DNA from: Streptomyces sp. NBC_00442
GTDB taxonomy: Bacteria > Actinomycetota > Actinomycetes > Streptomycetales > Streptomycetaceae
DNA: 64,000 nt
Direction of reading: 5' to 3'
Assembly: GCF_036014195.1 (NCBI RefSeq)
Contig: NZ_CP107918.1
Coordinates: forward strand, 5,456,001-5,520,000
The position numbers and the translations under genes are program-made. This document shows, piece after piece, positions 5,772 through 45,787 of this stretch. The notes below the pieces were generated by a model, which worked only from the letters and a program-made list of their open reading frames with translations, had not been told where the DNA came from and ran no database searches. Each line of letters begins with the position of its first letter. Within the stretch, counting starts at the first letter, position 1.

Positions 5772-6356
5772 TCAGGACCCCGTGTAGGCGGGCGTCGCCG
5801 GCACCTTGTCGGAGTGGTAGACCGTGTTCCCGGCGTCGTCCGGGTAGGCGGTGATGGTGACCTCGTAGCCAGCCATGGCGTCCTGCTTGAACGTCACGTC
5901 GGACCGGTCACTGACCTCGCCCTGGGGGACGTAGAAGCCCTTCGCGGTGTCGCCGTCCATGACGAGGAACCACCAGGCCCTGCGGTCGGGTTGCGGCGAC
6001 GCGGTCTCGGCGAAGCTGGTGACGCCGGAGACGGGGTCGAGGTCGTCCGCGTCGATCCGGTACATGATCGACTGGACGGCTACGCGAGCCGTCTCCCACA
6101 ACGTGAGCTTGAACGTCCGCACGGACTTGGTGATCTGCGTGCGGAACGGGGAAGTCAGGCCCCACGGCGTGAACTCCTGGCTCGACTCGTCGAAGCCGTA
6201 GACCAGGCCGTCGTCCGAGATGGCGCCGAGCGGTTCCCACGGAGTGAGCGGCTGAACGGAAGGGTCGGCGGGGGCCGTCGTACCAGCAGCGGCAACCCAG
6301 CCACCGCCGTTGGCACCGATGACTGTCAGGTCCGCCGCGCGGGTGATGTTGACCAT
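5772..6356 (-). CDS. Major tail (tube) protein
   Basis: A 194-aa protein (MVNITRAADLTVIGANGGGW) that should form the tail tube. The start at 6356 has GGAG eight bases upstream; an in-frame ATG at 6374 lacks a good site. The sequence resembles actinophage major tail proteins, with a short N-terminal arm, a WEPLGAISDDGLVYGFDE-type strand region and a C-terminal VTITAYPDDAGN segment. It is flanked by connector genes upstream and chaperones downstream, as expected. A hairpin lies just before the ribosome site. Confidence 0.9.
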   Translation of the reverse strand: MVNITRAADLTVIGANGGGWVAAAGTTAPADPSVQPLTPWEPLGAISDDGLVYGFDESSQEFTPWGLTSPFRTQITKSVRTFKLTLWETARVAVQSIMYRIDADDLDPVSGVTSFAETASPQPDRRAWWFLVMDGDTAKGFYVPQGEVSDRSDVTFKQDAMAGYEVTITAYPDDAGNTVYHSDKVPATPAYTGS

Positions 6357-7203: not shown

Positions 7204-7521
7204 GTGATCGCGGTCGAATCCATCGGCGGACAGGTCCAGTTCGACGGGCAGACCGTCACCATCAGGCGGACCAGCCGCATGGCCAAGTCCACGCTCGGCA
7301 CTGCCGACACGATCATTCCGATCGGGCACATAGGCGCCGTCGAATGGACCGAACCCCGCTGGTACAAGGCCGGGCACATCCGGTTCGCCATCGCCGGCAG
7401 CCAGTCGGCCGCGTCACCGACGCCCGTCAACCGAGACCGGAACGCTGTCATCTTCGGGAAGAAGGAGCTGCCCGCCTTCGAGAAGCTCCGGCTCGCCGTT
7501 CAGGACGCCATCAGCCGGTAA
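7204..7521 (+). CDS. DUF4429 domain protein on the opposite strand (moron)
   Basis: A 105-aa protein and the only convincing plus-strand gene between 1 and 26 kb. It starts with GTG, preceded by AAGGGGGA. The pattern 'V.FDGQTVTI', 'IPIGHIGAVEW', 'GHIRFAIAG', 'RDRNAVIFGKKELPAFEKLR' fits DUF4429, a PH-like short family common in Streptomyces and its phages; its function is unknown. It is inserted among late connector genes, and its 3' end overlaps the convergent head-closure gene by 11 bases. Transcription opposite to the late operon suggests expression in the lysogen. No clear promoter is visible in the 29-base gap before it, so any promoter would lie within the neighbouring gene. Confidence 0.85.
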   Translation: MIAVESIGGQVQFDGQTVTIRRTSRMAKSTLGTADTIIPIGHIGAVEWTEPRWYKAGHIRFAIAGSQSAASPTPVNRDRNAVIFGKKELPAFEKLRLAVQDAISR

Positions 7522-8299: not shown

Positions 8300-9283
8300 C
8301 TACGCCAGGGCTTCCACCGCATCGCACCAGGCAGCCAGGTCGGCTGCCGGATCGAGTTCCGCGCTGCGAGCCTTCGCGCGCTTCGACGCCAGCCGGTACT
8401 CGGCCGGCGCCGCGAGTTTGCGCAGGACCGCCTCGTAGCCGTCGACGTCGTTGCGGTCAACGAAGATCCCGGCCTCGCCGAGCGACTCGCACAGCCCCGG
8501 CGTCGGATGAGCGACGACCGGGATCCCAGAGGCGAGCGCCTCCACCCCGGCCCGGCCCCAGCTCTCATAACTGGACGGCATCAGCAGCACCCGAGTACGG
8601 GCATAGACCCGTTCCCGCATCTCGTGACCGCTGACGTGCTGAACGACCTCGACGTTCGGAAAGGCGGGGAGGATCTGCTCCCCGTAGGCGCCGGCGACCG
8701 CGAGGAACTCGGTGTCCGGCATCCGTTCGGCGAGCTTCTCCAGGACCCGGCCGCCCTTCTCCAAGTTGCAGTTGACGAGCGTCACCTTGCCGCCCGGCTT
8801 CGTCCGGTACTCCTCGGCCAGGACCGGGGGGCGCACAATCATGGTGCTCTCCGAGCGAACCGACTTGGGGTACTCGGCGTAGAACAGCTCAGCCTCGCGC
8901 TCCATCCACTGCGAGTTGTAGACCGCCAGGGCCGTGCCCCCGGACATGACGTCGCGGAACGTCGGCCTGAACGTGTTGTGGCAGACCACCGTGACGGGCT
9001 TGCCGTAGCCGCGGGCGATCGCCAGCGTCGACGGCACGTTCTCCAGGTGCGACACCAGAAGATCGGCCTGCCGCACCGCCGTTGAGAAGTCGAGGCGCGC
9101 CGACAGCGGGATGACCGTGACGCCGTCGATGTCATAGGGCTGACCGTCACCTGTGTAACGCGACAGCCACACCTCAACCCTGTGACCACGGCCGACCAGC
9201 GCCCGCAGCATGCTGTGAAGCATCCACTCCGCACCAGCGTTGTGGCGGGGCGGATAGCCGTGCAGCCGGGCAACAATCCGCAT
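8300..9283 (-). CDS. Glycosyltransferase, GT4 family (GT-B fold)
   Basis: A 327-aa enzyme starting MRIVARLHGYPPRHNAGAEW; a GTG four codons upstream is an alternative start. The N-terminal GAEWML segment, the PSSYESWGRAGVEALASGIPVV segment near residues 235-256 (the E-x7-E sugar-nucleotide region) and the C-terminal domain layout place it in GT4. It lies between the major capsid gene and the connectors, inside the late operon. It is therefore made with the virion and may glycosylate a structural protein or host envelope molecule. A second sugar cassette lies at 16.9-19.3 kb. The acceptor is unknown. Confidence 0.9.
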   Translation of the reverse strand: MRIVARLHGYPPRHNAGAEWMLHSMLRALVGRGHRVEVWLSRYTGDGQPYDIDGVTVIPLSARLDFSTAVRQADLLVSHLENVPSTLAIARGYGKPVTVVCHNTFRPTFRDVMSGGTALAVYNSQWMEREAELFYAEYPKSVRSESTMIVRPPVLAEEYRTKPGGKVTLVNCNLEKGGRVLEKLAERMPDTEFLAVAGAYGEQILPAFPNVEVVQHVSGHEMRERVYARTRVLLMPSSYESWGRAGVEALASGIPVVAHPTPGLCESLGEAGIFVDRNDVDGYEAVLRKLAAPAEYRLASKRAKARSAELDPAADLAAWCDAVEALA

Positions 9284-16917: not shown

Positions 16918-17799
16918 TCACGCCGTCAGCGCCCGCCGTATGCCCTCTTCGAGGGTGACCTTCGGGTCGTAGAACGCGAGCATCTTCTTCGGGTCGCAGA
17001 CGCGGTGGTGGACGCCTTGCGGCGCGTCGCCCCGGTGCTTGATGACGGGGCTGTATCCGGCGTCCTGCGTCACGTGCCCGGCAAGCTCGTCGAACGATGT
17101 CGCCCTGCCCCAGCCCAAGTTGACGGGGCCGCGCACGTCTTGGTCGACGGCTGCGAGGGTCGCGCCGACGAGGTCGTCGACGTGGATCCAGTCGCGGGTG
17201 GAGTCGCCGCTGCCCCACACCTCGAACGGATCCTGGCGCTCGCGCGCCCGCTGGATGAAAGCCGGGAACGGGTAGGCCGGATCCTGGTCGCTGCCGTAGC
17301 CGGAGAACGGCCGCAGGACCGTCATGCGCGTGCCCTCAGCCTCGGCGTACTGGCAGAGCTGCTCGCCGGTCAGCTTGGCGAGCCCGTAGGTCGCATCCGG
17401 CTTGCCGGGCTGCTCGTAGTCGATGTCCGCCTCGGCGAGCCGGTGAATTTCGCCGGGCTGCTGAAGCGCGACCGGGTAGGCGGCGGAGCTGGAGAAGTAC
17501 ACGGCGCGCGGTGTCCCCGATCGGGCCAGCCAGCGCATGTACCAGGAGTCCAGCGCGAGGTTGGTGGCGACGCCGAGCGGGGAGCCGTCGATGCTGGCCC
17601 GGCCGCCGACGATCGCCGCGCAGTGGATCGCGAGATCGAACGGCGCCTCGTTGGTACGGAAGAAGTCCAGGGCGTCGTACCGGCTGACGTTCGGCGCGGC
17701 CCTCAGGTCGAGGGCCGTGACGTAGTCGCCGCGCTCCGACAAGGCGCGGTGCAGGTGGCGGCCGACGAACCCGGCGGCACCCGTGAGGAGGACGCGCAT
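16918..17799 (-). CDS. NAD-dependent epimerase/dehydratase (extended SDR)
   Basis: A 293-aa nucleotide-sugar enzyme. The start MRVLLTG at 17799 is preferred; a GTG at 17811 is an alternative. It has the Rossmann motif TGAAGFVG (Gly7, Gly10, Gly13), the catalytic triad Ser103-105/Tyr138/Lys142 in SSSAAY and YGLAK, and the C-terminal RDWIHVDDLV motif of UDP- or GDP-sugar epimerases and GDP-fucose synthase-like enzymes. It is encoded with a GT-A glycosyltransferase and a methyltransferase, so it likely makes or modifies the sugar donor. The exact substrate is not readable from sequence. Confidence 0.93.
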   Translation of the reverse strand: MRVLLTGAAGFVGRHLHRALSERGDYVTALDLRAAPNVSRYDALDFFRTNEAPFDLAIHCAAIVGGRASIDGSPLGVATNLALDSWYMRWLARSGTPRAVYFSSSAAYPVALQQPGEIHRLAEADIDYEQPGKPDATYGLAKLTGEQLCQYAEAEGTRMTVLRPFSGYGSDQDPAYPFPAFIQRARERQDPFEVWGSGDSTRDWIHVDDLVGATLAAVDQDVRGPVNLGWGRATSFDELAGHVTQDAGYSPVIKHRGDAPQGVHHRVCDPKKMLAFYDPKVTLEEGIRRALTA

Positions 17800-17801
17800 G
17801 G

Positions 17802-17999
17802 TCACCACCACCTGATGCGTGTGCGTGCAGCATGCCGGAGGGCATCAGCTTCGCGGTCGGCCAGAGCGAGGTGTCCGGGCGACATCATGAAGAGGATCAC
17901 GTCGTCGTGGCGACCCGGGCTGTACGGAGGCAGCGTTCCACCGCGCGCAGGCTGACGGACTCGAAGGAGTCGGAGACTTAGCCTCAGAAGGCGGCGCAT
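17802..17999 (-). CDS. Small protein within the sugar cassette
   Basis: A 65-aa basic protein (MRRLLRLSLRLLRVRQPARGG) whose ATG overlaps the methyltransferase stop (TGATG). The N-terminus is an amphipathic, Leu/Arg-rich helix. The C-terminal half reads DDVILFMMSPGHLALADREADALR. It matches no domain I know. Its coupled position between methyltransferase and epimerase suggests a role in the same modification. Confidence 0.55.
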   Translation of the reverse strand: MRRLLRLSLRLLRVRQPARGGTLPPYSPGRHDDVILFMMSPGHLALADREADALRHAARTRIRWW

Positions 18000-18598
18000 C
18001 AGCTCGCCACCTTCACGGCCTTGTACACGCCCCACGGCAGTTCGCTGTCGATGGGCTCAAGGCCGATGCGGGCGCAGGCGTCGGCTTGCTGCTCGCGCGA
18101 CCAGGTCGTAACGCCGATCCAGTGGCTCGCCTCCGACGGCCGATCGCTGACGGGCCAGTCGAAGACCAGCGTGCCGCCGAGCTTCGTCGCCGCCCGCAGC
18201 CTGGTGATGATGTCGAGGCAGTCGGCGTAACTGTGGTGGATAAGCACGGCGAGCGCATACACGGCGTCCATGCGGCGCCTACCGAGATGGCTGGCGATGC
18301 CGTCGGCCGACGCGTGGACCGTGGTCAGATCGGGCGCGCGGTCGGTGAGCCGGTCGAGCATCCGCTGCGACGAGTCGACGGCCGTCACCTCGTAGCCGAG
18401 CGCGGCCATGGGGATCGCGACGCGGCCGTCACCACAGCCGAAGTCCATGACCTTGGCGCCGGCGGGGATGACCGCGGCGAGCATGGCGGCCTGCTGCCGC
18501 CCGGACTCCCAGTACGCATCCTCGGAGACGCGGCGGAGCGGGTGGATGTCCTGCGGGTCGGCCTGGTCCCAGGCGTCGATGACGTCGGCGGCGGTCAT
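17999..18598 (-). CDS. Class I SAM-dependent methyltransferase
   Basis: A 199-aa enzyme with motif I KVMDFGCGDGRVA at about residues 49-61, an acidic VTAVDSS after the second strand, and a post-motif YALAVLIHHSYADC. It is of the small-molecule or sugar methyltransferase type rather than a DNA methyltransferase, because no SPPY or PC motif is present. It is coupled to both neighbours (four-base overlap with the GT-A gene). It probably methylates a sugar or glycan made by the cassette; inferred from context. Confidence 0.9.
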   Translation of the reverse strand: MTAADVIDAWDQADPQDIHPLRRVSEDAYWESGRQQAAMLAAVIPAGAKVMDFGCGDGRVAIPMAALGYEVTAVDSSQRMLDRLTDRAPDLTTVHASADGIASHLGRRRMDAVYALAVLIHHSYADCLDIITRLRAATKLGGTLVFDWPVSDRPSEASHWIGVTTWSREQQADACARIGLEPIDSELPWGVYKAVKVAS

Positions 18599-19299
18599 GC
18601 TGCCTCCTCGACGAGCGCCCGAAGTTTCTCAAGGTCAGCGGTCAGCGCACCGTCGTCCTTGTACGCGTAGTAGGCGGTCGCATCGGCGGTGACCTGCTCG
18701 GAGCTGTTGCACTCCTCGTAGCCCGCGTCCAGTTGGGCTTTGCCCGCTGCGGGGTGGAGGTGCTCGATGACCATGTCGTCGAGGTAGGTAATCCGCTGCA
18801 TGCCGACTCCCCAGTCCTTCCAGACGAGGTCGACGCACAGGTGCACGAACTGCGGCGGCGCCATGTAGCCGAGCGTCGTGACGATGTCCGACGTCATGGC
18901 CACGGCGGTCGGCATCAGTTCGCCCTGGAGCAGGTCGTTGCCGTAGACGATGCCGGGCCCGCCGGACAGGCACTCGCGGATGCGGGCGTCCCAGCCAGCC
19001 GTGCGGGGCCGGTGATCGTCGCCCATGAAGCCGAGGAAGCGGTAGGCCGAAGCTGCCTTCACGGCCTGGCGGTTGAGGGTGCCGACGAGCCGCTCGCGCT
19101 CCCCGAACACGAACCGGAGCCGGCCGTCAGCCTCATACGCGGTGGCGTGAGCCTCGTACCGGGCGAGCTGCGGGTCGTCCGTGTCGACGGCGAACAGCAC
19201 GCCGGCCGTCGCGCCAGTCGCATCCCACGCCGTCATGATCTCGGGGATGGCCTGGGGACGGTTGCGGGTGGGGATGATGACGAGCAGGTCGTCGACCAT
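18595..19299 (-). CDS. Glycosyltransferase family 2-like protein (GT-A fold)
   Basis: A 234-aa protein. The N-terminus LLVIIPTRNRPQAIPEI is the nucleotide-binding strand of GT-A enzymes. FMGDDHRPRTAGWDARI at residues 91-107 carries a DDH in place of the DxD metal motif. It is the first gene of the four-gene sugar cassette. It may decorate virion proteins, perhaps the capsid or the collagen-like fibre encoded next to it. The acceptor is unknown. Confidence 0.88.
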   Translation of the reverse strand: MVDDLLVIIPTRNRPQAIPEIMTAWDATGATAGVLFAVDTDDPQLARYEAHATAYEADGRLRFVFGERERLVGTLNRQAVKAASAYRFLGFMGDDHRPRTAGWDARIRECLSGGPGIVYGNDLLQGELMPTAVAMTSDIVTTLGYMAPPQFVHLCVDLVWKDWGVGMQRITYLDDMVIEHLHPAAGKAQLDAGYEECNSSEQVTADATAYYAYKDDGALTADLEKLRALVEEAA

Positions 19300-20023: not shown

Positions 20024-20821
20024 TCAGGCGGTGGTGTTGTCGGTGACGAGCCCCAGCGCCGCGAGGGCTGCCAGGAGCGAGGCGTAGGCCGTCCCGTCGC
20101 CGTGCGAACCGCTCACAACGGGCCGGGAGACGGCCGCAGCGCCGAAGAAGCCCGCGGTGCCATTGGCGCCGTTGAGGAGATGCCGCACCGAGCCGTCGCC
20201 GCCGGTGATGTTGACGGGGCCGGTCGAGTTCATGCCCGCCAGGAACGCGGTGCCCTGCTCGATGGCGGCGAGCCGGTTGAAGATGTCGTCCAAGAAGCCG
20301 TTCAGCGTGGTCACCGTGCCGCTGAGGCTGGTGAGGGCCGCCGTGGTGGCCGCGCCGATCGCCGCGGGGGTGACCGGATCGGCGCCGGCTGCTGCGTGAC
20401 TGCTCGCGTGAGCGGTGGGCGTGCGGGAGTTGGTGGTGGACGGATCATCGCTCTTGAGGGCGATCGTCGGTCCTGCCCCGGCGGCCCCAAGAGTCGGCTG
20501 CGGGCCGGTCGGGCCCGTAGCTCCGGCAGGACCCTGGGGGCCTGTAGCGCCGGTGGCTCCCGTATCGCCCTTTGGTCCCGTTGGCCCAGTGGCGCCCGCC
20601 GCACCGGTGTCGCCCTTTGGCCCGGTCGCGCCTGCGGCCCCGGTCGAGCCCTGCGGGCCGGTGTTCCCAGTGTCGCCCTTGGGCCCTGCGGGTCCGGTTG
20701 CTCCCGTGGCGCCGGTCGGCCCCGTAGGCCCGGCGGGGCCCGCGGGTCCGGCCACGGCGATGTATTCGCCGGTGGACGGTTCGGCTACGGGTGCCAGGTC
20801 GGCGAGTTCGATGGTTCCCAT
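20024..20821 (-). CDS. Collagen-like tail fibre, C-terminal part (frame-disrupted gene)
   Basis: 265 codons with a Gly-X-Y repeat region ([19 protein letters not shown] and onward, residues about 25-107). [21 protein letters not shown] segment follows, found in many phage fibres, then a short coiled coil ([17 protein letters not shown]) and a C-terminal tip. The ATG at 20821 has no ribosome site. The frame is open upstream to about 20899 with sensible sequence ([20 protein letters not shown]) that continues the gene at 20830-21120 in another frame. It is therefore probably the larger part of a single fibre gene split by a frameshift. Confidence 0.8.
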
Positions 20822-22589: not shown

Positions 22590-23104
22590 AGGATGCCCCC
22601 GAAGCCATTCACCGCGGCCACCAACTGGTCGCCGCCCTGGTTCACGAGGCCGGGCAGCCAGTTGAGGAGGCTCGCCACTCCGGCGGTGATGCACAGGGTG
22701 GAGCCGACCAGCGCGCCGCCCGCCGTGCGCTTCTTGTCCTGCTTCCCGGCGGCACGCCAGCCGAGGACGATCGCGATCGTCGCGCCGAACACCACGATCG
22801 CGCCGTTCGGCGTGAGCGCCCCGAGGCTGCCGTGCGCGAGTGTCGTGCTGGCCCCTCGCCCGGTGACGGCGGAGACGGCCTTGTCGCCGACGCCGTTGGT
22901 CACGCCTGGGGTGCAGCCTGCGAGCCAGCCCATGAGGCCACCAGTGCACATCGTCGACAGGGCGCCGAGGAGGAACCCGGACCCGAACGGGGCGAGCTGC
23001 TTGGGGTCGCGGCTGCCCTTCCACCAGGGGCGGAGGTTCGCCCAGGTGATGGCAAGGGTGAGGGCCAGTCCGGCGAGGGACAGGCCGGCGGTGCTGCCGT
23101 TCAC
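22586..23104 (-). CDS. Spd-like integral membrane protein
   Basis: A 172-aa protein with four predicted membrane segments (LSLAGLALTLAITWANL; FGSGFLLGALSTMCTGGLMGWLAG; NGAIVVFGATIAIVLGW; GALVGSTLCITAGVASLL). The GTG start overlaps the upstream stop, and the gene overlaps the next by four bases. A WWKGSRDPKQLAPF loop resembles proteins of Streptomyces conjugative elements. No catalytic motif. Confidence 0.7.
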   Translation of the reverse strand: MNGSTAGLSLAGLALTLAITWANLRPWWKGSRDPKQLAPFGSGFLLGALSTMCTGGLMGWLAGCTPGVTNGVGDKAVSAVTGRGASTTLAHGSLGALTPNGAIVVFGATIAIVLGWRAAGKQDKKRTAGGALVGSTLCITAGVASLLNWLPGLVNQGGDQLVAAVNGFGGIL

Positions 23105-23631
23105 CGGGTCACCCCCGTGAGTGCGGTGACCGGGTCGAACCAGGACATGGCGCCGCTTGCGCCGACGATCGCGGCGACGAGGAGCGTGCGGGCCCACCAG
23201 CGGCGGGACCGGTCGAGGAGCAGCGTCACGCCGAGGGCTACGACGGCGAGGGTGTAGGCGCCGCCGGTGCTGGCTTCGGCACGGCACTGGTGCAGTGTCT
23301 CCGCCCATGCGGTGATCAGGCTGTAGCCGTGCGGCAGGACAGGCAACGCGGCGATCCCTGCGGCCAGTACGGACTGCACGGGACGCAGCCACTCCCAGAG
23401 CCACGACCAGTCCCTCGACGCCTCAGGCTCCGGGACGGGATAGACGAGGTCCACCGTGACCCGCACGTCGAGCGGGCCGGGCGTCGGCGGATCCGGCATG
23501 GCGTACCAGGACGGCCGCGCGGGCGGCGGCGGAGGAGGGGGCGGCGGCGCCGCGGGCAGGGGGATCGGGATGTGAACGCCGGGCGGGATGATCCGCGTCG
23601 GCTCGATCGGGGTGGGCATGGCGGGGCTCAC
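23101..23631 (-). CDS. Proline-rich membrane protein of the Spd-like operon
   Basis: A 176-aa protein; the GTG at 23631 overlaps the upstream stop, and an ATG four codons later is an alternative. It has a Pro stretch near residues 27-40, then WSWLWEWLRPVQSVLAAGIAALPVL and two further hydrophobic segments. The layout (Pro-rich cytoplasmic arm, then membrane helices) suggests a scaffold in a membrane complex. Function unknown. Confidence 0.65.
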   Translation of the reverse strand: MSPAMPTPIEPTRIIPPGVHIPIPLPAAPPPPPPPPPARPSWYAMPDPPTPGPLDVRVTVDLVYPVPEPEASRDWSWLWEWLRPVQSVLAAGIAALPVLPHGYSLITAWAETLHQCRAEASTGGAYTLAVVALGVTLLLDRSRRWWARTLLVAAIVGASGAMSWFDPVTALTGVTR

Positions 23632-23840: not shown

Positions 23841-24019
23841 CACGCCCGCCAGGTGAGGGCGAGGCACAGGGCGCCGGTGGCGATGCAGGACGTGGCGACG
23901 AACAGCACGGCGTGTACGAGAACGGCGTGAGGGATGTCGTCGCGGTAGGTGCCGACGGCGAGGCCAAGCGCGGCGGCGATCGCCATGACGGGAAAGCCGA
24001 TCATCAGGGCGAGGAGCAT
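23837..24019 (-). CDS. Small two-segment membrane protein
   Basis: A 60-aa protein that is almost wholly hydrophobic: MLLALMIGFPVMAIAAALGL, then a short DDIPHA turn, and VLVHAVLFVATSCIATGALCLAL. TGATG overlap with the DUF2637 gene shows coupling. Probably a subunit of the same membrane complex. Confidence 0.65.
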   Translation of the reverse strand: MLLALMIGFPVMAIAAALGLAVGTYRDDIPHAVLVHAVLFVATSCIATGALCLALTWRAW

Positions 24020-25050
24020 CAGTTGTAGCCCTCCCCGCCCCGCCCGACGTCTCCGTCGGGGTCCTGTTGCGCGGGTGTTGCGCCCGGCGGGGCGGGGCGT
24101 TTTTTGGCGCGGGACAATACGGCCCGGACCTGGTTCTGTCCGACGTCCAGACGGTGGCGCAGAGCCACGCCCTTGACGATGTCCGCTGCGGGCGCAGCAG
24201 GGCCGAGCAACACCGCAACATCGAGGATCGCGTCGGCCTTGGTCAGCGCGGGCCGTTCCTCTGTGACCTGCGGCGCAACAGGTGCTGCGCCCTGTTGCGC
24301 CTCCCGTTCCACGGTCACTTCGGCGGGGCGGAAGCCGAGCACGAGCGCCACCTGTACGGCGTCGACGATCACGCCGTAGGAGATCAGCTGTGAGGCCAGT
24401 TCGGCCGGCGGCAGCGCGGGTTGCGCCTCGTGGGCGATACGGATCGCCTCGGCCGGATCCATCTCCGCGAAGCGTCGTCGCAGCACTGCTGTAGCCGACC
24501 TGTCCTTGCTGTCCGCAGCGGGTGTTGCGCCCGTGTTGCGGGCCGCGTGCTCGATGTGGTCGACGGCCCGCTGCTTGACGCTGCGCCCTGCGCGTGCCGG
24601 GGCGAGGAGCCAGACCCAGCCGCCGAACGCTGGCGGCCGGAACGGGATCTCGCCGCGTTCGACACGCGCCCGGTAGCGAGCGGCGGACCAGGCGAGGCCG
24701 GACGGCAGGAGCAGTGCCAGGGTGGGGCTGGAGAAGAGGATCGCGGCGGGCACGACGGGCATGTGGGCGTCGAGGAGCCGGGCGTGGGTGGTGTTGAGGT
24801 AGCAGGAGACGCTGGCCATGACGAGAGTGCCGAGTACGGCGCCGATCGCGGCACGGCCTTCCTGCACGGCGACGGAGGCGAGGTACATGCAGGCGATGGC
24901 TGCGCCGTCGAACACGGCGACCGCGCCGTAGGCGAACAGTGCCGGGACGCCGTAGGTGTCGTGCGCGACGACGTACAGGGACCAGCCGGTCATGGCGAGA
25001 GCGGCGATGGAAACAGCGCTGATGGAGACGCGCCAGGCGTTGCGGTTCAT
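24019..25050 (-). CDS. DUF2637 membrane protein (Spd/transfer-associated)
   Basis: A 343-aa protein. Four membrane segments lie at about residues 8-29, 34-58, 66-84 and 97-118, typical of DUF2637 as found in Streptomyces plasmids, integrative elements and some phages. The cytoplasmic part of about 220 residues includes a helical AVLRRRFAEMDPAEAIRIAHE region and a C-terminal DVAVLLGPAAPAADIVKGVALRHRLDVGQNQVRAVLSRAKK segment that looks like a winged helix. It is the largest gene of the membrane operon. The family role is unknown; association with conjugative spread is established only by gene context. Confidence 0.8.
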   Translation of the reverse strand: MNRNAWRVSISAVSIAALAMTGWSLYVVAHDTYGVPALFAYGAVAVFDGAAIACMYLASVAVQEGRAAIGAVLGTLVMASVSCYLNTTHARLLDAHMPVVPAAILFSSPTLALLLPSGLAWSAARYRARVERGEIPFRPPAFGGWVWLLAPARAGRSVKQRAVDHIEHAARNTGATPAADSKDRSATAVLRRRFAEMDPAEAIRIAHEAQPALPPAELASQLISYGVIVDAVQVALVLGFRPAEVTVEREAQQGAAPVAPQVTEERPALTKADAILDVAVLLGPAAPAADIVKGVALRHRLDVGQNQVRAVLSRAKKRPAPPGATPAQQDPDGDVGRGGEGYN

Positions 25051-25117
25051 GTGAAGGCCCGTCCAAGGGGGTGGCCGGGCCGCGCGCTGGGGGCGTCGCG
25101 GCCCGGCCGGCTGGTGG

Positions 25118-25296: not shown

Positions 25297-25518
25297 TCAC
25301 CACTCCCCGAACGTGCACACGGGCCCGCAGACCCGACGCTGGTGCGGGCCGCCCGGCGCAAAGTGCGCACGGTGCGCGGCGTCGCGCTGCTCCTGGTCGC
25401 GGCGCGTCTTGTCGGCCTGCCAGGACACGGGCTTGGCGCCGCGGGCGAGCTCCTCGCAGCGCGGGCAGTGGTCGACGAGGCGGCCGAAGCTGCCCTTGTG
25501 GGTGTGCTTCGTCGTCAT
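25297..25518 (-). CDS. Conserved small zinc-binding-like protein
   Basis: A 73-aa protein (MTTKHTHKGSFGRLVDHCPRCEELARGAKP) with a CPRC pair and a C-terminal HQRRVCGPVCTFGEW, giving four cysteines that could hold zinc. Very similar small proteins are encoded in Streptomyces integrative elements and phages next to replication or spread genes. Overlaps the upstream gene by four bases. Confidence 0.75.
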   Translation of the reverse strand: MTTKHTHKGSFGRLVDHCPRCEELARGAKPVSWQADKTRRDQEQRDAAHRAHFAPGGPHQRRVCGPVCTFGEW

Positions 25519-25865
25519 GCCGCACCGCCCGCCGCGCGCCGCAGGATCAGCGCGTACTCGCCGCGCGTGATCGGCGTGCCGTCGGTGATGCGCGGCATGT
25601 GGCGCAGCACCTCGCGCTCGACATCGTCGGCGCGGGTCGAGCGGAAGCCGTGGGCCTCGGTGGCGTAGCGCAGGGCGAGGGCCAGGCGGCTCGGCTCGCG
25701 CATGGCGCCGGCGGGGCGCACGGCGGAGATTCGGTCGGCGATGGCCGTCAGGACGGCGCGGGCGTCGACGCTGGGGCTGGTGGCCTGACGCAGCGCTTCG
25801 TCCTGCTGAGTGGGGTGCTGCTGGGCGCTATCGGTACTGCGCAAAGCGCCAGTACGATCGTTCAT
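25515..25865 (-). CDS. First gene of the Spd-like operon, hypothetical
   Basis: A 116-aa protein starting MNDRTGALRSTDSAQQ with an AGGAGG site. The C-terminal half (VLTAIADRISAV...RLALALRYATEAHGFRSTRADDVEREVLRHMPRITDG) is helical. Its first codons contain an operator-like dyad (25834-25855). Its untranslated leader would contain the three hairpins at 25901-26011. No function recognised. Confidence 0.65.
   Translation of the reverse strand: MNDRTGALRSTDSAQQHPTQQDEALRQATSPSVDARAVLTAIADRISAVRPAGAMREPSRLALALRYATEAHGFRSTRADDVEREVLRHMPRITDGTPITRGEYALILRRAAGGAA
25834..25855. promoter_or_regulatory. Operator-like dyad A
   Basis: GTACTG-N10-CAGTAC. The right-hand 14 bases, read on the minus strand as GTACTGGCGCTTTG, are identical to bases 26037-26050 in dyad B, so the two sites face each other across the divergent intergenic region. 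It overlaps the first codons of the 25515-25865 gene. Likely bound by one regulator, possibly the 89-aa HTH protein encoded to the right. Confidence 0.5.
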
Positions 25866-25900
25866 GGCTGTTCCTCCTGGTGATGCAGGTGGACGGCTGG

Positions 25901-26011
25901 CCCGGCCCGATGTGTCACCACCGGGCCGGGGTTGAGGCGGGGCCTGGTGTGTCACCACCGGGCCCCGCCGTTGTTCAGCCCCGGCCTGTTGTGTCACCAA
26001 CGGCCGGGGCT
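25901..26011 (-). repeat. Three tandem hairpins with identical loop motif
   Basis: Three inverted repeats lie at 25901-25930, 25936-25969 and 25977-26011, with 9-, 9- and 10-bp perfect stems of different sequence. Each loop contains the same 10-mer TGTGTCACCA (at 25911, 25948 and 25990), read as TGGTGACACA in minus-strand RNA. Stems that differ but all pair, with a fixed loop, suggest selection for structure. On the minus strand they would form the 5' leader of the membrane-gene operon. As DNA they could be protein-binding cruciform or iteron sites. Confidence 0.75.
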
Positions 26012-26034
26012 TCGTGCTGTGTTGAGACTAGAAC

Positions 26035-26060
26035 GAGTACTGGCGCTTTGACAAGTACTC
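26035..26060. promoter_or_regulatory. Operator-like dyad B with promoter elements
   Basis: GAGTACT-N12-AGTACTC. It shares 14 bases with dyad A and covers a TTGACA (26048-26053) on the plus strand. On the minus strand TTGTCA followed 17 bases later by CTAGTC could form the operon promoter. The site lies just before the plus-strand regulator gene, so autoregulation and control of the divergent operon are likely. Confidence 0.45.
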
Positions 26061-26075
26061 TGGAAGGGTGGTGCC

Positions 26076-26345
26076 ATGCCAGACGCCGACGAGAAGGGGG
26101 GCTACCCCGAGATGGTGACCTTCACTGAGATCGCCAAGCGGCTCAACGCCGGCGAATACCTGGCACGGCCGATCACCCGCCAGGGCGTGCGGTACATCGC
26201 CGACCACGACCCGTCCTGGCCCGTCCCCCGCGAGAACTGGTTGCGGATCGGCAACGCCTGGGCCGTCCCCTGGGGCCCCATCGAGATGTTCTTCCGATCC
26301 CGCACCACCCGCGGCAGAGGCCCGAACAAGCCAGCCGCTGAATAG
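26076..26345 (+). CDS. Small HTH-type regulator, divergent to the Spd-like operon
   Basis: An 89-aa protein with GGAAGGG seven bases before the ATG. MVTFTEIAKRLNAGEYLARPITRQGVRYIADHDPSWPVP matches a compact helix-turn-helix of the type that reads a 'T..EIA..L' recognition helix. WLRIGNAWAVPWGPIEMFF is the C-terminal wing region seen in such small regulators of Streptomyces mobile elements. It is the only plus-strand gene between DUF4429 and the repressor. It probably binds the dyads upstream. Confidence 0.75.
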   Translation: MPDADEKGGYPEMVTFTEIAKRLNAGEYLARPITRQGVRYIADHDPSWPVPRENWLRIGNAWAVPWGPIEMFFRSRTTRGRGPNKPAAE

Positions 26346-32310: not shown

Positions 32311-34005
32311 TCACGCGGCGGATGCCAACTGCGGCTGGGTGTGCCGGTCGATGTCTTCGCCGGTGATCGCTTCGACGAGCGCGGAGACGATGACTTCGGC
32401 GCAGTTGGGGGTGACGGCGTTGCCGTACTGGCGGACTTTTTCGCGCTTGGAGCCGAGGACGATGTACTGGTCGGCGAAGCTCATGGCCCGGCCGATCTCG
32501 TGGGGTTCGAGCATGCGGAACCGGACGTCGTCGATGTCCACCTTGCCCTGGACGAGGGCGTACCGGTCGCGGGTGGAGAGCGTGCCGATCGGCTCGTGGA
32601 CGGGGCGGGCCTGGCCGTTGCCGTAGTACGGCACCAGCAGGTGCTCCCAGGTGACCAGCGACTGGTGCCCGGCCGTCGTCAGGGTGCGCAGGTACTCGGC
32701 GGCCGTGGTGCAGTGCTCGCCGCCGTCCCCGGTGCGGCTGCCGTTGTTGCGCATCACGAACGCCGGGACGTCCGGGGTGACGAGGCCGTGGTGGTTGCCG
32801 TTGGCGGAGACGGTGCCGAGGGCTTCGCGGATGGAGCGGCCGCGGAGCTGGTCGCCGCCGCCGCGCATGGTGACCATGAACGGGAGCCAGGCCAGGCCGG
32901 TTTCGTTGCGGGCGGTCTGGGTGCGCAGCGGGTTGTTCGCGCTCGCGGGCTCCTTGCCGTCGCGGCCCTCGACCGGGATGAGGAGGGGCGGGATCGCGAG
33001 CCCGTCGTTCTCGCGGGTGGTGCGGGTCGGGATCGGGTCCCACACCGGGACCGCGTCGTTGCGCCAGGTGCCCCCGGCCGGGACGACGGTGGGGACGGCG
33101 AACTTGTCGAGGCCGGCCTGGATGCGGGCGAGGGTCTTATCGGCGAGGGGCTTGGTGCGGTCGCCGATCCGCTGGCCCGGCAGCGTCCAGTCGATCGCGA
33201 CCGCGGCGGGCAGCGTCTCCGGTTCCACGACCTGGCTGCGGCAGGTGCTGTTGGGGCAGCGGTAGACGTACTGCTGCCGGTAGCGGCCCATGTCCCGGCC
33301 CGGGGCCTTGAACCGCTGCACGGCCTGGACCCACTGGTCGCAGCCGGGGCACCAGGCGCGGGGGCGCAGCCACTTGTCCCAGTCGGGGGTGCGGGCCAGC
33401 GATCGGTGCCAGTACGCGACGTACAGGCGGTCGCGGGACTGGGGCGCCTTGTGGACGGTGCGGGGGTCGGCGTGCATCGAGTTGAGGGCGATGACCCGGG
33501 TGTCGTAGCCGAGCTTCCTGATTTCGCCGATCCAGCGGTCCCACTGGTCCCAGGCCCGGACGTCGACGACGTTCTCGACGACGCCGGCCTTCACCAGCCC
33601 GCCGCGTTGCTGGACGCCCCGCAGGTACATGGGGACTTCCTCCATCAGTGCGCGGGAGCGCTCGACTTCCTCCGAGGGGGCGAACTCGTCTCCGAACAGG
33701 TCGCCTTGCTGGCTGGTGGCGAAGTCCCGCTTCTTGCCGCGGGCGTTCGACCACTGCGGGCATTCCGGGGACGCCCAGAAGATGTCGGTGACTGGCCACT
33801 GCTCGACCGGAGCCTCGCGGATGTCACCGCGGTAGTGGTCGACTTGGGGGAAGTTCGCGGTGTGCGAGTCGATGGCCTTCTGCCAGTGGTTCGCCGCGCG
33901 CTCGACCCGGACGCCGGGGATGGCGTGCATGCCCTGCGAGCTGCCGCCCGCACCGCAAAACCAGTCCATGACGGTGAGCGCGTCGTTGTCGTTGCGGTAC
34001 ATCAC
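32311..34005 (-). CDS. DNA (cytosine-5) methyltransferase, phage type
   Basis: A 564-aa C5 methyltransferase. Motif I FCGAGG is at residues 16-21, ENV at 144-146, QSR at 189-191 and the C-terminal RQYGNAVTPN motif X near 535. Motif IV reads SPECPQWS: the catalytic Cys82 is preceded by Glu instead of the usual Pro in PC, as in some actinophage enzymes. An insert with CPGC (219-222) and CPNSTC (250-255) looks like a zinc knuckle. No restriction partner is adjacent, so it probably protects phage DNA from host restriction or regulates transcription. Confidence 0.92.
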   Translation of the reverse strand: MMYRNDNDALTVMDWFCGAGGSSQGMHAIPGVRVERAANHWQKAIDSHTANFPQVDHYRGDIREAPVEQWPVTDIFWASPECPQWSNARGKKRDFATSQQGDLFGDEFAPSEEVERSRALMEEVPMYLRGVQQRGGLVKAGVVENVVDVRAWDQWDRWIGEIRKLGYDTRVIALNSMHADPRTVHKAPQSRDRLYVAYWHRSLARTPDWDKWLRPRAWCPGCDQWVQAVQRFKAPGRDMGRYRQQYVYRCPNSTCRSQVVEPETLPAAVAIDWTLPGQRIGDRTKPLADKTLARIQAGLDKFAVPTVVPAGGTWRNDAVPVWDPIPTRTTRENDGLAIPPLLIPVEGRDGKEPASANNPLRTQTARNETGLAWLPFMVTMRGGGDQLRGRSIREALGTVSANGNHHGLVTPDVPAFVMRNNGSRTGDGGEHCTTAAEYLRTLTTAGHQSLVTWEHLLVPYYGNGQARPVHEPIGTLSTRDRYALVQGKVDIDDVRFRMLEPHEIGRAMSFADQYIVLGSKREKVRQYGNAVTPNCAEVIVSALVEAITGEDIDRHTQPQLASAA

Positions 34006-37742: not shown

Positions 37743-38669
37743 CTAGGCGGCGCCGAACTGAAGGACTCCCTGCGCGAACCGCGGCTTGGCGAGGTCGTGG
37801 TAGTCGGAGTTGAGGTCGATGCCGATGTACTTCCGGCCGAGCCCCACGGCCGCTACGCCGGTGGTGCCGGCGCCGGAAAACGGATCCAGCACAGTCCCGC
37901 CGGTCTTGCAGCCGGCCTTGATGCAGCGGGTCGCCAGTTCGAGGGGCATGACGGCGAAGTGGGCTTCGCGGAGGCGTGCCGGTGCGATGGCCCAGACGTC
38001 TCCGGGGTTGGCGCCGTTCGGGTGGGCGGCGAGACTCGGGATGGTTTCTCCGGCTCTGTCGCCGCTCGCCCCGTGACGGCCGCTGGCGCCTGCGGCCTTG
38101 CGTTCTTGCCATGTGGCGCCGGGCCGGGACTGCGGGGCTTCGCGCACCGCGTCCAGGTCGAACCGGTACTGGTCCTGTGCGGTGAGGAAATAGACGATCT
38201 CGTGCTTGCTGCGGAACCGGTCGGTGACGGGTTCGGGCATGCAGCTCGTCTTGTGCCAGACGATCTTGTTGCGCAGGATCCAGCCGTCGCCCCACAGCGC
38301 CAGGCAGACCCGCTCCGGGATGAGTTGCAGGCTTTTCAGCTGTCCCGGAGCCGACCGGGCCGCGGGGCCCACGCCGGCACGGCTGCGGCACTCGATTGCG
38401 GAGCCGTAGGAGTCGCCCAAGTTCAGCCACAGCGTGCCGTCCTCGGCGAGGACACGCCGTGCTTCGGTGAACACCGCCCGAAGGGTGTCGATGTACTCCT
38501 CGGGCGTGGGCTCCAGCCCGTACTGGCCGGGCGTGCCGTAGTTCCGCAGCCCGTAGTACGGCGGGCTCGTGACGATGCAGTCCACCGACCGGTCCGCCAG
38601 GGTACGGAGCACCGCAAGGGCGTCACCGAGGAGGAGAGTTACCTGCTCGTCCTGGTAGTAGGGATCCAT
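37743..38669 (-). CDS. Site-specific DNA methyltransferase (N4-C/N6-A type)
   Basis: A 308-aa amino-methyltransferase. The catalytic motif IV TSPPYYGLRN is at residues 34-43 and the SAM-binding motif I LDPFSGAGTTGVAA near residue 275. The order IV before I is that of the beta class. SPPY suggests N4-cytosine or N6-adenine as target. GGAGG precedes the ATG. No restriction enzyme gene is adjacent. With the C5 enzyme it gives this prophage two DNA-modifying activities, probably anti-restriction. Confidence 0.92.
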   Translation of the reverse strand: MDPYYQDEQVTLLLGDALAVLRTLADRSVDCIVTSPPYYGLRNYGTPGQYGLEPTPEEYIDTLRAVFTEARRVLAEDGTLWLNLGDSYGSAIECRSRAGVGPAARSAPGQLKSLQLIPERVCLALWGDGWILRNKIVWHKTSCMPEPVTDRFRSKHEIVYFLTAQDQYRFDLDAVREAPQSRPGATWQERKAAGASGRHGASGDRAGETIPSLAAHPNGANPGDVWAIAPARLREAHFAVMPLELATRCIKAGCKTGGTVLDPFSGAGTTGVAAVGLGRKYIGIDLNSDYHDLAKPRFAQGVLQFGAA

Positions 38670-44378: not shown

Positions 44379-44437
44379 CCCCTGCTGTCATCGGCGGCTG
44401 GAGGACAATGGGCAGTACCGGCAAGGGGGTTGAGGTC

Positions 44438-45787
44438 ATGGCCTACGGCGAAAAGGTCTACAAGGTCCGCAACGGCAAGCAGACCAAGCAGTTCACCTGG
44501 CGATGCAAGTACAAGCTGGCCAACGGCAAGTACGGCACCGAGCCTGGATTCCCCACGAAGAAGAAGGCCGAGGAGTGGGGCGAGGAGCAGGAGGCCGCCA
44601 TCCGGGCCGGCCGCTGGATCGACCCGGCTCTCCAGCGGATGCACTTCGGCGAGTTCGCCCGGAAGTGGATGAAGGCCAAGCCCAAGCGCGGCAACACGGT
44701 CGGCAAGCGGTGGAACCTGCTGGAGCAGCACATCCTGCCCACGTGGGAGCACACGCCGATGATCGCCATCAACTGGTTCGACGTCGATGCCTGGCAGCAG
44801 GGCCTGTCCTGCGACGAGACGACCGCCGGTCACGCGGTCAGTCTGATGTCGTCGATCCTGACCGGCGCGGTCGACGCCAAGCACCTGTCGGTGAATCCGC
44901 TGTACGCCCGACGACGGACGCGTGCCGCCGCAGGTATGGCCGGCGCGAGCCAGAAGAAGAAGGATGAGGAGAAGTGGGCGCCGCCGGAGGTCGTGTTGCA
45001 GATGGCGCAACGCCTGGGCCCGGCAATCGGGCTGCACGTCATCGCGACCGCGTTCACGGGGCTCGGCTGGGGCGAAGGGGCCGGGCTACACCGAGACAAC
45101 GTTCTGCGCACGCGACGGCAGGCGTATGACGGCGGCTGGTTCGAATGTCCCGTGATCAGGGTGGATGAGGAGGTGGGGGAGCTCGTTGAGTACGAGGGGC
45201 GCGACGAGGAGGGCAACAAGACGGGGATGGTGCACCGGCTGGAGCCGCCGAAGAACGGCACCCGCGGACGGGACATCGACGTGCCCCCATTCCTGACAGA
45301 GCTGCTGCGGTACCACCTTGCGGACTGGCCGCACGAGTACGTGTTCTGCACGCCGTCGGGTAAGTGGTGGCGCCGTTCCAACTTCACCCGGGCCCACATC
45401 CGGCCGGCGGCGGATGGCCGCGAGGCGCTGCCGACGGTCAAGGGGCACCAGCCGCGGCCTGCATGGGATCCGATCATGCCTGGGCTGACCATGAGGGCCT
45501 TGCGGCACACGCACGACACCTATCAGGAGCAGATCGGGGTACGGCCGGCCTTGATGTTCGAGCAGGCGGGCCACAAGCGCCCGGGAATCAAGGCGGTGTA
45601 CCAGCACCCAACGCCTGCGATGCGCCAGGAACGTCTTGACGGATTGCAGGAGATCTACGAGCGGGCGATGCATAATCTGAAGTGGCGCACGCTGTGGGGC
45701 CGGGTCGACTTGAAGAAAGCTCCCCGAGGAGTTGATCTCCCAAATATCTCCCAAACGATCAATCGGGATCATGGGCGTGCTGCGTGA
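44438..45787 (+). CDS. int: Tyrosine recombinase (integrase)
   Basis: A 449-aa phage integrase; the ATG at 44438 has AAGGGGG nine bases upstream, and an ATG at 44408 is an alternative. It has an N-terminal AP2-like arm-binding region (KQTKQFTWRCKYKLANGKYGTEPGFPTKKKAEEW), a SAM-like core-binding domain, and a catalytic domain with LRHTH (Arg356, His357), GHKRPG (His379) and nucleophile VYQH (Tyr388). Unusually, the box I position expected to be Arg is Gly210 (TGLGWGE), and the H of HxxR is Arg353. It ends 51 bases before the tRNA-derived attachment core. Confidence 0.9.
   Translation: MAYGEKVYKVRNGKQTKQFTWRCKYKLANGKYGTEPGFPTKKKAEEWGEEQEAAIRAGRWIDPALQRMHFGEFARKWMKAKPKRGNTVGKRWNLLEQHILPTWEHTPMIAINWFDVDAWQQGLSCDETTAGHAVSLMSSILTGAVDAKHLSVNPLYARRRTRAAAGMAGASQKKKDEEKWAPPEVVLQMAQRLGPAIGLHVIATAFTGLGWGEGAGLHRDNVLRTRRQAYDGGWFECPVIRVDEEVGELVEYEGRDEEGNKTGMVHRLEPPKNGTRGRDIDVPPFLTELLRYHLADWPHEYVFCTPSGKWWRRSNFTRAHIRPAADGREALPTVKGHQPRPAWDPIMPGLTMRALRHTHDTYQEQIGVRPALMFEQAGHKRPGIKAVYQHPTPAMRQERLDGLQEIYERAMHNLKWRTLWGRVDLKKAPRGVDLPNISQTINRDHGRAA

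Follow-up and report, generated by a model that had tools for sequence, protein, structure and literature searches.

A conserved three-hairpin leader at the head of a putative prophage late operon in Streptomyces, and its possible role as a cis-antisense RNA

Results

The hairpins lie between a divergent gene and a putative late operon

The window, i.e. the whole 64-kb stretch of DNA analysed, is part of a 7.7-Mb one-contig Streptomyces genome and contains a prophage, with integrase and regulator genes, an early block, and genes for terminase, portal, major capsid, tail tube and tape measure. The hairpins are located between a plus-strand gene for a protein of 89 aa and a minus-strand block that extends from 25865 leftward. 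They had been predicted to form the leader of an operon, between two related operators. Their position agrees with this: the block behind them comprises terminase, portal, capsid and tail genes, and GTACT-N12-AGTAC inverted repeats are found at exactly two places in the window. The features of the locus are the following.

44408-45787: integrase, prophage gene
26076-26345, plus strand: divergent 89-aa gene, possibly a winged-helix regulator according to its predicted structure
26036-26059, either strand: operator 1, AGTACT-N12-AGTACT inverted repeat, overlying the minus-strand promoter
26049-26054, minus strand: -35 box TTGTCA of the late operon promoter, from the sequence
26025-26030, minus strand: -10 box TAGTCT, after an 18-nt spacer, with a predicted start at about 26017-26019
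25978-26010, plus strand: hairpin 1, the outermost, terminator-like on the plus strand
25936-25969, plus strand: hairpin 2, the best conserved of the three, its pairing maintained by wobble on the plus strand
25901-25930, plus strand: hairpin 3, from sequence and fold
25876-25889, minus strand: CCTG..CAGG stem taking in part of the Shine-Dalgarno sequence AGGAGG (25873-25878), from a pattern match
25834-25855, either strand: operator 2, GTACT-N12-AGTAC inverted repeat, overlapping the antisense -10 box described below
25515-25865, minus strand: gene 1 of the operon, 116 aa, a weak relative of the VWB gp22 family phrog_28251 (E 0.0064)
96-25865, minus strand: putative late operon led by the hairpin leader, small genes followed by terminase, portal, capsid and tail genes

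Strand and gene content suggest that the minus-strand block is one late operon; a crude choice of open reading frames also called plus-strand ones inside it (e.g. 7204-7521 and 22593-23120). The model of the 89-aa protein was of moderate quality (mean pLDDT 77.5), with the secondary-structure order E-H-H-E-E-H, and its best PDB match, the winged helix of Mu transposase, was not significant (E 0.15).

Several other features of the prophage were noted. Epimerase, methyltransferase and glycosyltransferase genes are found within the structural-gene block (16918-19299 and 8300-9223, minus strand), a group 1 glycosyltransferase gene adjoining that of the major capsid protein; these sugar genes perhaps serve virion sugar decoration. 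The late block also encodes a collagen-repeat protein (20024-20755, Pfam Collagen), and the early block two DNA methyltransferases, of the C5-cytosine and N6/N4 types (32311-34002 and 37743-38669). Several relatives have another strong hairpin, frequently one with a C-rich loop, at a distance of about 550-1060 nt behind the leader. That of the window is at 25072-25109 on the minus strand, in the gap before the gene at 24019-25050; in L280 it lies at about +616 nt from the first loop, and it is likewise present in L052, L042, L067, L166 and L180.

The hairpins share a hexaloop

Three tandem GC-rich hairpins are indeed present at 25901-26011, and the identical loop word TGTGTCACCA reported for them has exactly three copies in the window (25911, 25948 and 25990). 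No further copy was found in the 64-kb window at up to one mismatch, for which reason we discarded the idea of trans targets within it; the word by itself is not rare, about 2.7 occurrences being expected in the window at up to one mismatch. The loop had been described as one of 10 bases. Because the outer four bases of the 10-mer pair together in the minus-strand fold, giving U-G-(G-U-G-A-C-A)-C-A, in which U-G pairs with C-A, it is instead a hexaloop and the stems are longer. The stems do pair, as predicted, over 12-14 pairs rather than the 9, 9 and 10 bp first given, and the pairing is not perfect, with one bulge and one mismatch in different hairpins. Over 70 unique hairpins, the second closing pair was T-A in 67, C-G in 2 and C.A in 1, changes at this position thus occurring pairwise (C-G replacing T-A in 2/70); in hairpin 2 of L294 we read it by eye as A-T.

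Folding of the 176-nt region was far better than that of shuffled sequences on both strands (z -6.4 minus, -6.7 plus; 0/200 shuffles as good on each). Mean single-hairpin energies were equal by strand (-25.2 sense, -25.5 antisense), and free folding formed all three hairpins in 19/22 leaders for the sense strand vs 14/22 for the antisense strand. The best global fold of the plus strand of the window retained just one of the three. Rfam 15 gave no match at the gathering score in the 64-kb window, and the 14 matches at a relaxed threshold were all far below that score. Searches of open-access papers yielded no account of the element either, in keeping with the impression of an undescribed element.

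The leader is conserved among phages

To what extent is this structure shared? A two-loop pattern matched 51 stretches in viral sequences and 84 in genomes, the majority of them rejected by a GC-stem filter, and a looser pattern, with N-N at the two central loop bases, brought further leaders. As the viral part consists of the matches listed, the resulting family counts at least 26 distinct leaders, at least 22 of them with three motif-bearing hairpins. Rows representing the same phage were merged: L022, L141 (L280), L027 (L119), L184 (L288), L203 (L163), L285 (L158), L287 (L159), L290 (L146) and L291 (L289). L066, L129 and L218 were removed as low-complexity or unrelated, along with other pattern hits failing the GC-stem filter. 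Four leaders with two motif-bearing hairpins each (L146, L282, L283 and L284) are in the 26-leader counts and outside the 22-leader alignment. Homologous leaders and a covariance model had been called for as a check on the idea that structure around a fixed loop is under selection; conserved loops and covarying stems were found, which supports that idea. We take the hairpin array to be a genuine RNA element that Streptomyces-type phages have conserved.

Some leaders come from Streptomyces-named genomes (e.g. L067, L119 and L121) or from phage VWB, and many from uncultured viral contigs. Exact patterns found the element in 3/392 genomes of the genus (the own genome, G354 and G112). The two-loop pattern occurred in 14 genomes of the genus, only the own one and G354 passing the hairpin filter. 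At E 0.001 or better, the covariance model matched 9/200 genomes of the family, the own included, in 4/17 genera, these matches taking in one- and two-hairpin versions (such as L298, L300 and L297) and weak relatives; on the whole own genome it gave one match. The element is thus sparse in genomes, as would be expected of a phage element.

Among named phages, the only DNA matches listed were two VWB records. The VWB leader (AY320035, 15626-15754) has the same three hairpins and the same loop kind, GA, as that of the window, and lies in the same place, between gp21, which matches an excisionase/regulator family, and gp22. Behind it, gp22 to gp57 cover about 33 kb, only gp46 being on the opposite strand. 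No feature is annotated under the matching VWB stretch. The two leaders differ in operator type, and in VWB-type leaders no operator of the 25834-25855 kind was seen at the antisense -10 box. The divergent 89-aa protein had no match among phage records and matched 6 plasmid records; by DNA, pSP90 was matched among plasmid records, where the leader of L236 was not found. Phage-plasmid-like leaders (L157, which is pSP90, L160, L161 and L162) have the promoter, the operator, the antisense -10 box and a terminator-like first hairpin, with its tail in pSP90, L160 and L161, and lack the loop motif. The CCTG..CAGG stem is present in 25/26 hairpin-bearing and 4/4 phage-plasmid leaders (29/30), the sole exception, L049, reading CTTG..CAGG.

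On the minus strand, TTGTCA or TTGACA stands 16-19 nt from TAnnnT in 12 of the 24 leaders that were readable upstream. TAnnnT alone was present in 6 more, making 18/24 as compared with 21% in shuffles; L254, L289, L067, L185, L282 and L284 lack a minus-strand -10 box at this place.

Pairing in hairpin 2 is kept on the plus strand

We compared pairing on the two strands, using for hairpin 2 an alignment of 20 of the 22 leaders (L042 and L052 were omitted, their hairpin 2 being equal to that of L008). On the plus strand, pairs formed in 99.3% of the 280 cells, in 22 of them as G-U; 7/14 pairs were changed on both sides, and covariation reached 0.427 vs 0.181 in shuffles (0/500). On the minus strand, 91.4% of the cells were paired, none as G-U, and covariation was also significant (0.295 vs 0.074 in shuffles; 0/500). 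The strands thus differ at 22 of the 280 cells, each a G-U wobble when read as plus strand and a mismatch when read as minus strand; there was no cell of the opposite kind, and 2 cells were unpaired either way. These 22 cells are distributed over eight of the 14 pairs, all one way, and eight columns is the fairer number because related sequences inflate cell counts.

The other hairpins showed a weak bias in the same direction, with 12 G-U vs 17 A-C for hairpin 1 and 7 vs 14 for hairpin 3 on the sense strand. A strand-neutral count on the sense strand yielded 19 G-U vs 39 A-C distinct contexts (p 0.012), or 11 vs 25 when counted by position and type (p 0.029). Counts of G-U taken from single best folds (23 sense and 79 antisense in 70 hairpins) overstate the bias and were dropped. 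Only hairpin 2 is decisive in this respect. Its wobbles can all be read as plus-strand C to T changes. Strand-biased mutation during transcription could add to them, which would also point to plus-strand transcription; replication bias may be another source.

A predicted antisense -10 box and a U-enriched tail flank the hairpins

Signals that could start and end a plus-strand RNA were found on either side of the array.

25853-25858, plus strand: predicted antisense -10 box TACGAT, within codons 3-5 of gene 1
26011-26019, plus strand: U-enriched tail TTCGTGCTG after hairpin 1, from T counts over 24 leaders
25866-26019, plus strand: predicted antisense RNA of about 154 nt, from the -10 box, the tail and the wobble evidence, with both ends predicted

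The sense-strand motif A...TA, which corresponds to TAnnnT on the plus strand, stood at +8 of gene 1 in 24 of 28 unique leaders, as compared with a background of 2/5759 positions in the same genes. These 28 are the unique starts among 30, and consist of 25 hairpin-bearing leaders (21/25 at +8) and 3 phage-plasmid leaders without the loop motif. When +5 to +8 were allowed, the count rose to 27/28, three having the motif at +5 or +7 and only L254 being without it. The wobble base of codon 4 was T in 26/28 leaders vs 6.1% in downstream codons, and the amino acid encoded there was of nine kinds; selection therefore seems to act on DNA or RNA and not on the protein. Seven further distinct loci found with the covariance model were also inspected. 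Five had the antisense -10 box near the start of gene 1 (L294, L296, L297, L298 and L300), and L299 and L301 lacked it in the usual place. L299 (at about 1543-1574) is a two-hairpin relative with a different loop, TGGTTGGACA.

On the antisense strand the leaders have no conserved -35 box, and strict scanning of 25700-26200 detected neither a sigma-70 promoter nor a terminator. In the available text of PMC4895711, TANNNT is the -10 element at 80.4% of 3,570 S. coelicolor start sites and a -35 element is recognised at only 58.6%; for S. avermitilis, the available text of PMC8780764 supports both TANNNT and U-enriched ends.

The sequence that follows hairpin 1 is also strand-biased. Over 24 leaders, the mean number of T in it was 2.9 for the first five and 4.0 for the first eight positions on the plus strand, and 0.375 and 0.46 on the minus strand. 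Corresponding plus-strand values were 2.4 and 2.7 for hairpin 2 (0.25 in the first five on the minus strand) and 1.1 and 1.5 for hairpin 3. The plus-strand tails are U-enriched and are not U-runs. Since the first-five value of hairpin 2 is nearly equal, the terminator cannot be assigned to hairpin 1 from its tail, although among several terminator-like ends its own is the best.

The loops differ between phages at two bases

On the minus strand the hexaloop reads G-U-N-N-C-A, its surrounding bases being nearly fixed and its two central bases varying between phages. In the 26 leaders among the matches listed, the central pair was GA in 11, UG in 6, CG in 6, AG in 2 and mixed in 1, so that it was uniform across the counted hairpins of a leader in 25/26. 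The mixed leader, L158, has GA, AG and AG (sense loops at 6331, 6373 and 6410 of its reverse strand). It is a close relative of the leader of the window, with loops 2 and 3 changed from GA to AG and loop 1 still GA; its stem 2 is the same as that of the window and its stem 3 differs by one base. The sense loops fit G-U-N-R-C-A, with U-N-R in all four kinds and G before U. U-turn recognition loops of the YUNR type are defined by Y-U-N-R (PMC4485353, available text), and the full motif was absent from both sense and antisense loops. The identity of the divergent protein, compared with that at 11 other loci, did not correspond to loop class. Pairing of the loops with 'TCACCA' near the Shine-Dalgarno sequence of the window was also considered, and dropped as many relatives have other bases there.

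Discussion

A proposed cis-antisense RNA opposite the late leader

The leader is conserved and its stems covary; it further has the antisense -10 signal, the tail bias and the wobble bias. From these sequence data we propose, with a probability of about one half, that a plus-strand cis-antisense small RNA, with the hairpin array as its body, lies opposite the 5' leader of the late operon, its identical loops serving loop-loop recognition. The odds given to this antisense reading rest on the antisense -10 box and on hairpin 2; the T counts after hairpin 2 and the minus-strand promoter counts moderate what is claimed for the terminator and the promoter and leave the odds as they were. Neither a likely antisense transcript nor a loop that varies between phages and is uniform within a leader had been anticipated from the sequence alone.

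The system might work as follows. A promoter made of a -10 box only, in the first codons of gene 1, would start the antisense RNA opposite the start codon, and hairpin 1 with its U-enriched tail would end it opposite the mRNA start. Two facing promoters, with about 170 bp between their -10 boxes, would in this way produce complementary RNAs with matching hairpins. In plasmid copy-control antisense pairs, complementary hairpins first make contact by loop kissing (PMC4485353, available text). Here each antisense loop could meet each mRNA loop, all loops of an element being the same, and this would make the first contact faster. Pairing would extend from the loops across the leader and the Shine-Dalgarno sequence, blocking the translation of gene 1; with its predicted ends, the antisense RNA is complementary to the whole leader, Shine-Dalgarno sequence included. 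The RNA duplex would be open to RNase III, and expression of the operon could be lowered by polarity or by RNase III, the outcome being a brake or a threshold on late genes. In leaders that have operator 1 as well as operator 2, a single regulator could shut both promoters in the lysogen, and the product of the divergent gene is a possible candidate. A leader with mixed loops, such as L158, would be tolerable if the partner of each loop is its own complement.

Several observations tell against this reading. Free folding forms all three hairpins more often for the sense strand, covariation is significant on that strand too, and the wobble bias of hairpins 1 and 3 is weak. The antisense strand has no conserved -35 box and no hit in the strict promoter and terminator scans, its tails are U-enriched without being U-runs, L299 and L301 lack the antisense -10 box in the usual place, and neither loop has a full YUNR motif. 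Complementarity by itself leaves the nearly fixed bases around the central pair unexplained. These bases hint at a reader that recognises more than base pairing, and both strands of the leader may matter.

We also considered that the repeated loops might form a two-letter identity code (GA, UG, CG, AG) in previously undescribed antisense/leader RNA pairs of Streptomyces phages. Phages with the same code would then silence each other's late operon, and the code would define RNA-based immunity or incompatibility groups. This extension of the antisense reading is speculative and we regard it as unlikely.

If the antisense reading is true, an unannotated RNA governs the switch to late genes in Streptomyces-type phages, including VWB. 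One could then study, in a natural system, what the repetition of one loop and a two-base code contribute to the rate and the specificity with which two RNAs recognise each other. Altering the promoter or the code would change proteins little or not at all.

Other explanations

The main rival places the function on the late mRNA, where the hairpins would be a site for antitermination or for binding a regulator, comparable to HK022 put or lambda nut boxB: the repeated loop would be recognised by RNA polymerase or by a phage protein, and terminators would be read through. The minus-strand promoter just before the hairpins fits this, with its -35/-10 pair in half of the leaders and its -10 box alone in a quarter, as does the length of the block that follows, some 26 kb in the window and about 33 kb in VWB. 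Furthermore, the sense RNA mostly forms all three hairpins and its stems covary, all four kinds of sense loop fit the U-turn-like G-U-N-R-C-A, and uniform loops within a leader would suit a single trans-acting reader. This was our leading model until hairpin 2 had been counted on both strands, its wobble pairing being on the opposite strand only. Antitermination also leaves the antisense -10 box and the tail unexplained, the loops of L158 are of mixed kinds, the divergent protein, the one family compared, does not track loop classes, and 6/24 leaders are without a minus-strand -10 box at this place. Intergenic hairpins downstream of the leader, considered as terminators that antitermination would have to overcome, are candidates at most. 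We hold antitermination to be a minority possibility, with a chance well below even.

Could the plus-strand transcript instead be the leader of the divergent regulator gene? It would cross the hairpins into 26076-26345, with hairpin 1 as an attenuator, and the plus-strand promoter signal does point at that gene, the next on the strand. Yet in L297 an HTH-like gene, co-directional with the mRNA, ends shortly before hairpin 1, and the hairpins, the tail of hairpin 1 and the antisense -10 box are all kept there, which makes this explanation improbable. Of similarly low probability is a sponge or protein-binding small RNA whose loop copies titrate or recruit an RNA-binding protein independently of pairing with the mRNA. 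It would account for the identical repeated loops and for the nearly fixed bases flanking the variable pair, but no candidate protein was found and versions with one or two hairpins exist.

Finally, GC inverted repeats between two operators could suggest that the element acts as DNA, forming a cruciform or a hairpin in single-stranded DNA that serves replication, transfer or the binding of a repressor; such a reading predicts no strand bias in hairpin 2, where the 22 cells all go one way, and the tails are strand-biased too, so that this is very improbable and the cruciform for transfer first envisaged is unsupported, hairpin 2 being kept strand-specifically.

Comparison with known systems

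P22 sar and lambda OOP are phage cis-antisense RNAs, in which a short hairpin RNA is made from a promoter facing a phage operon. Like them, the RNA proposed here is predicted to run antisense to the beginning of a phage gene. As judged by description, it differs from them in having three hairpins that share one loop, in its place at the head of a putative late operon, and in belonging to Streptomyces-type phages.

HK022 put and lambda nut boxB place hairpins, with loops of several specificity classes, where a long phage transcript begins, as the predicted minus-strand promoter would do here; in contrast to them, the strand bias of hairpin 2 favours the opposite strand.

In plasmids, antisense pairs control copy number, as with ColE1 RNAI/RNAII and R1 CopA/CopT, and changes in the loops set specificity groups. 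We know of no plasmid antisense pair with one loop repeated three times. Unlike these pairs, the present element is accompanied by no replication gene or primer that we could see, and its loops lack the strict YUNR motif. RNA-based replication has been reported for mycobacterial prophages (PMC7157519, available text), which we cite as an analogy only. Overall, the antisense reading has the strongest support of those considered here, its chances being about even, and the element is one for which neither Rfam nor the open-access papers searched gave a description.
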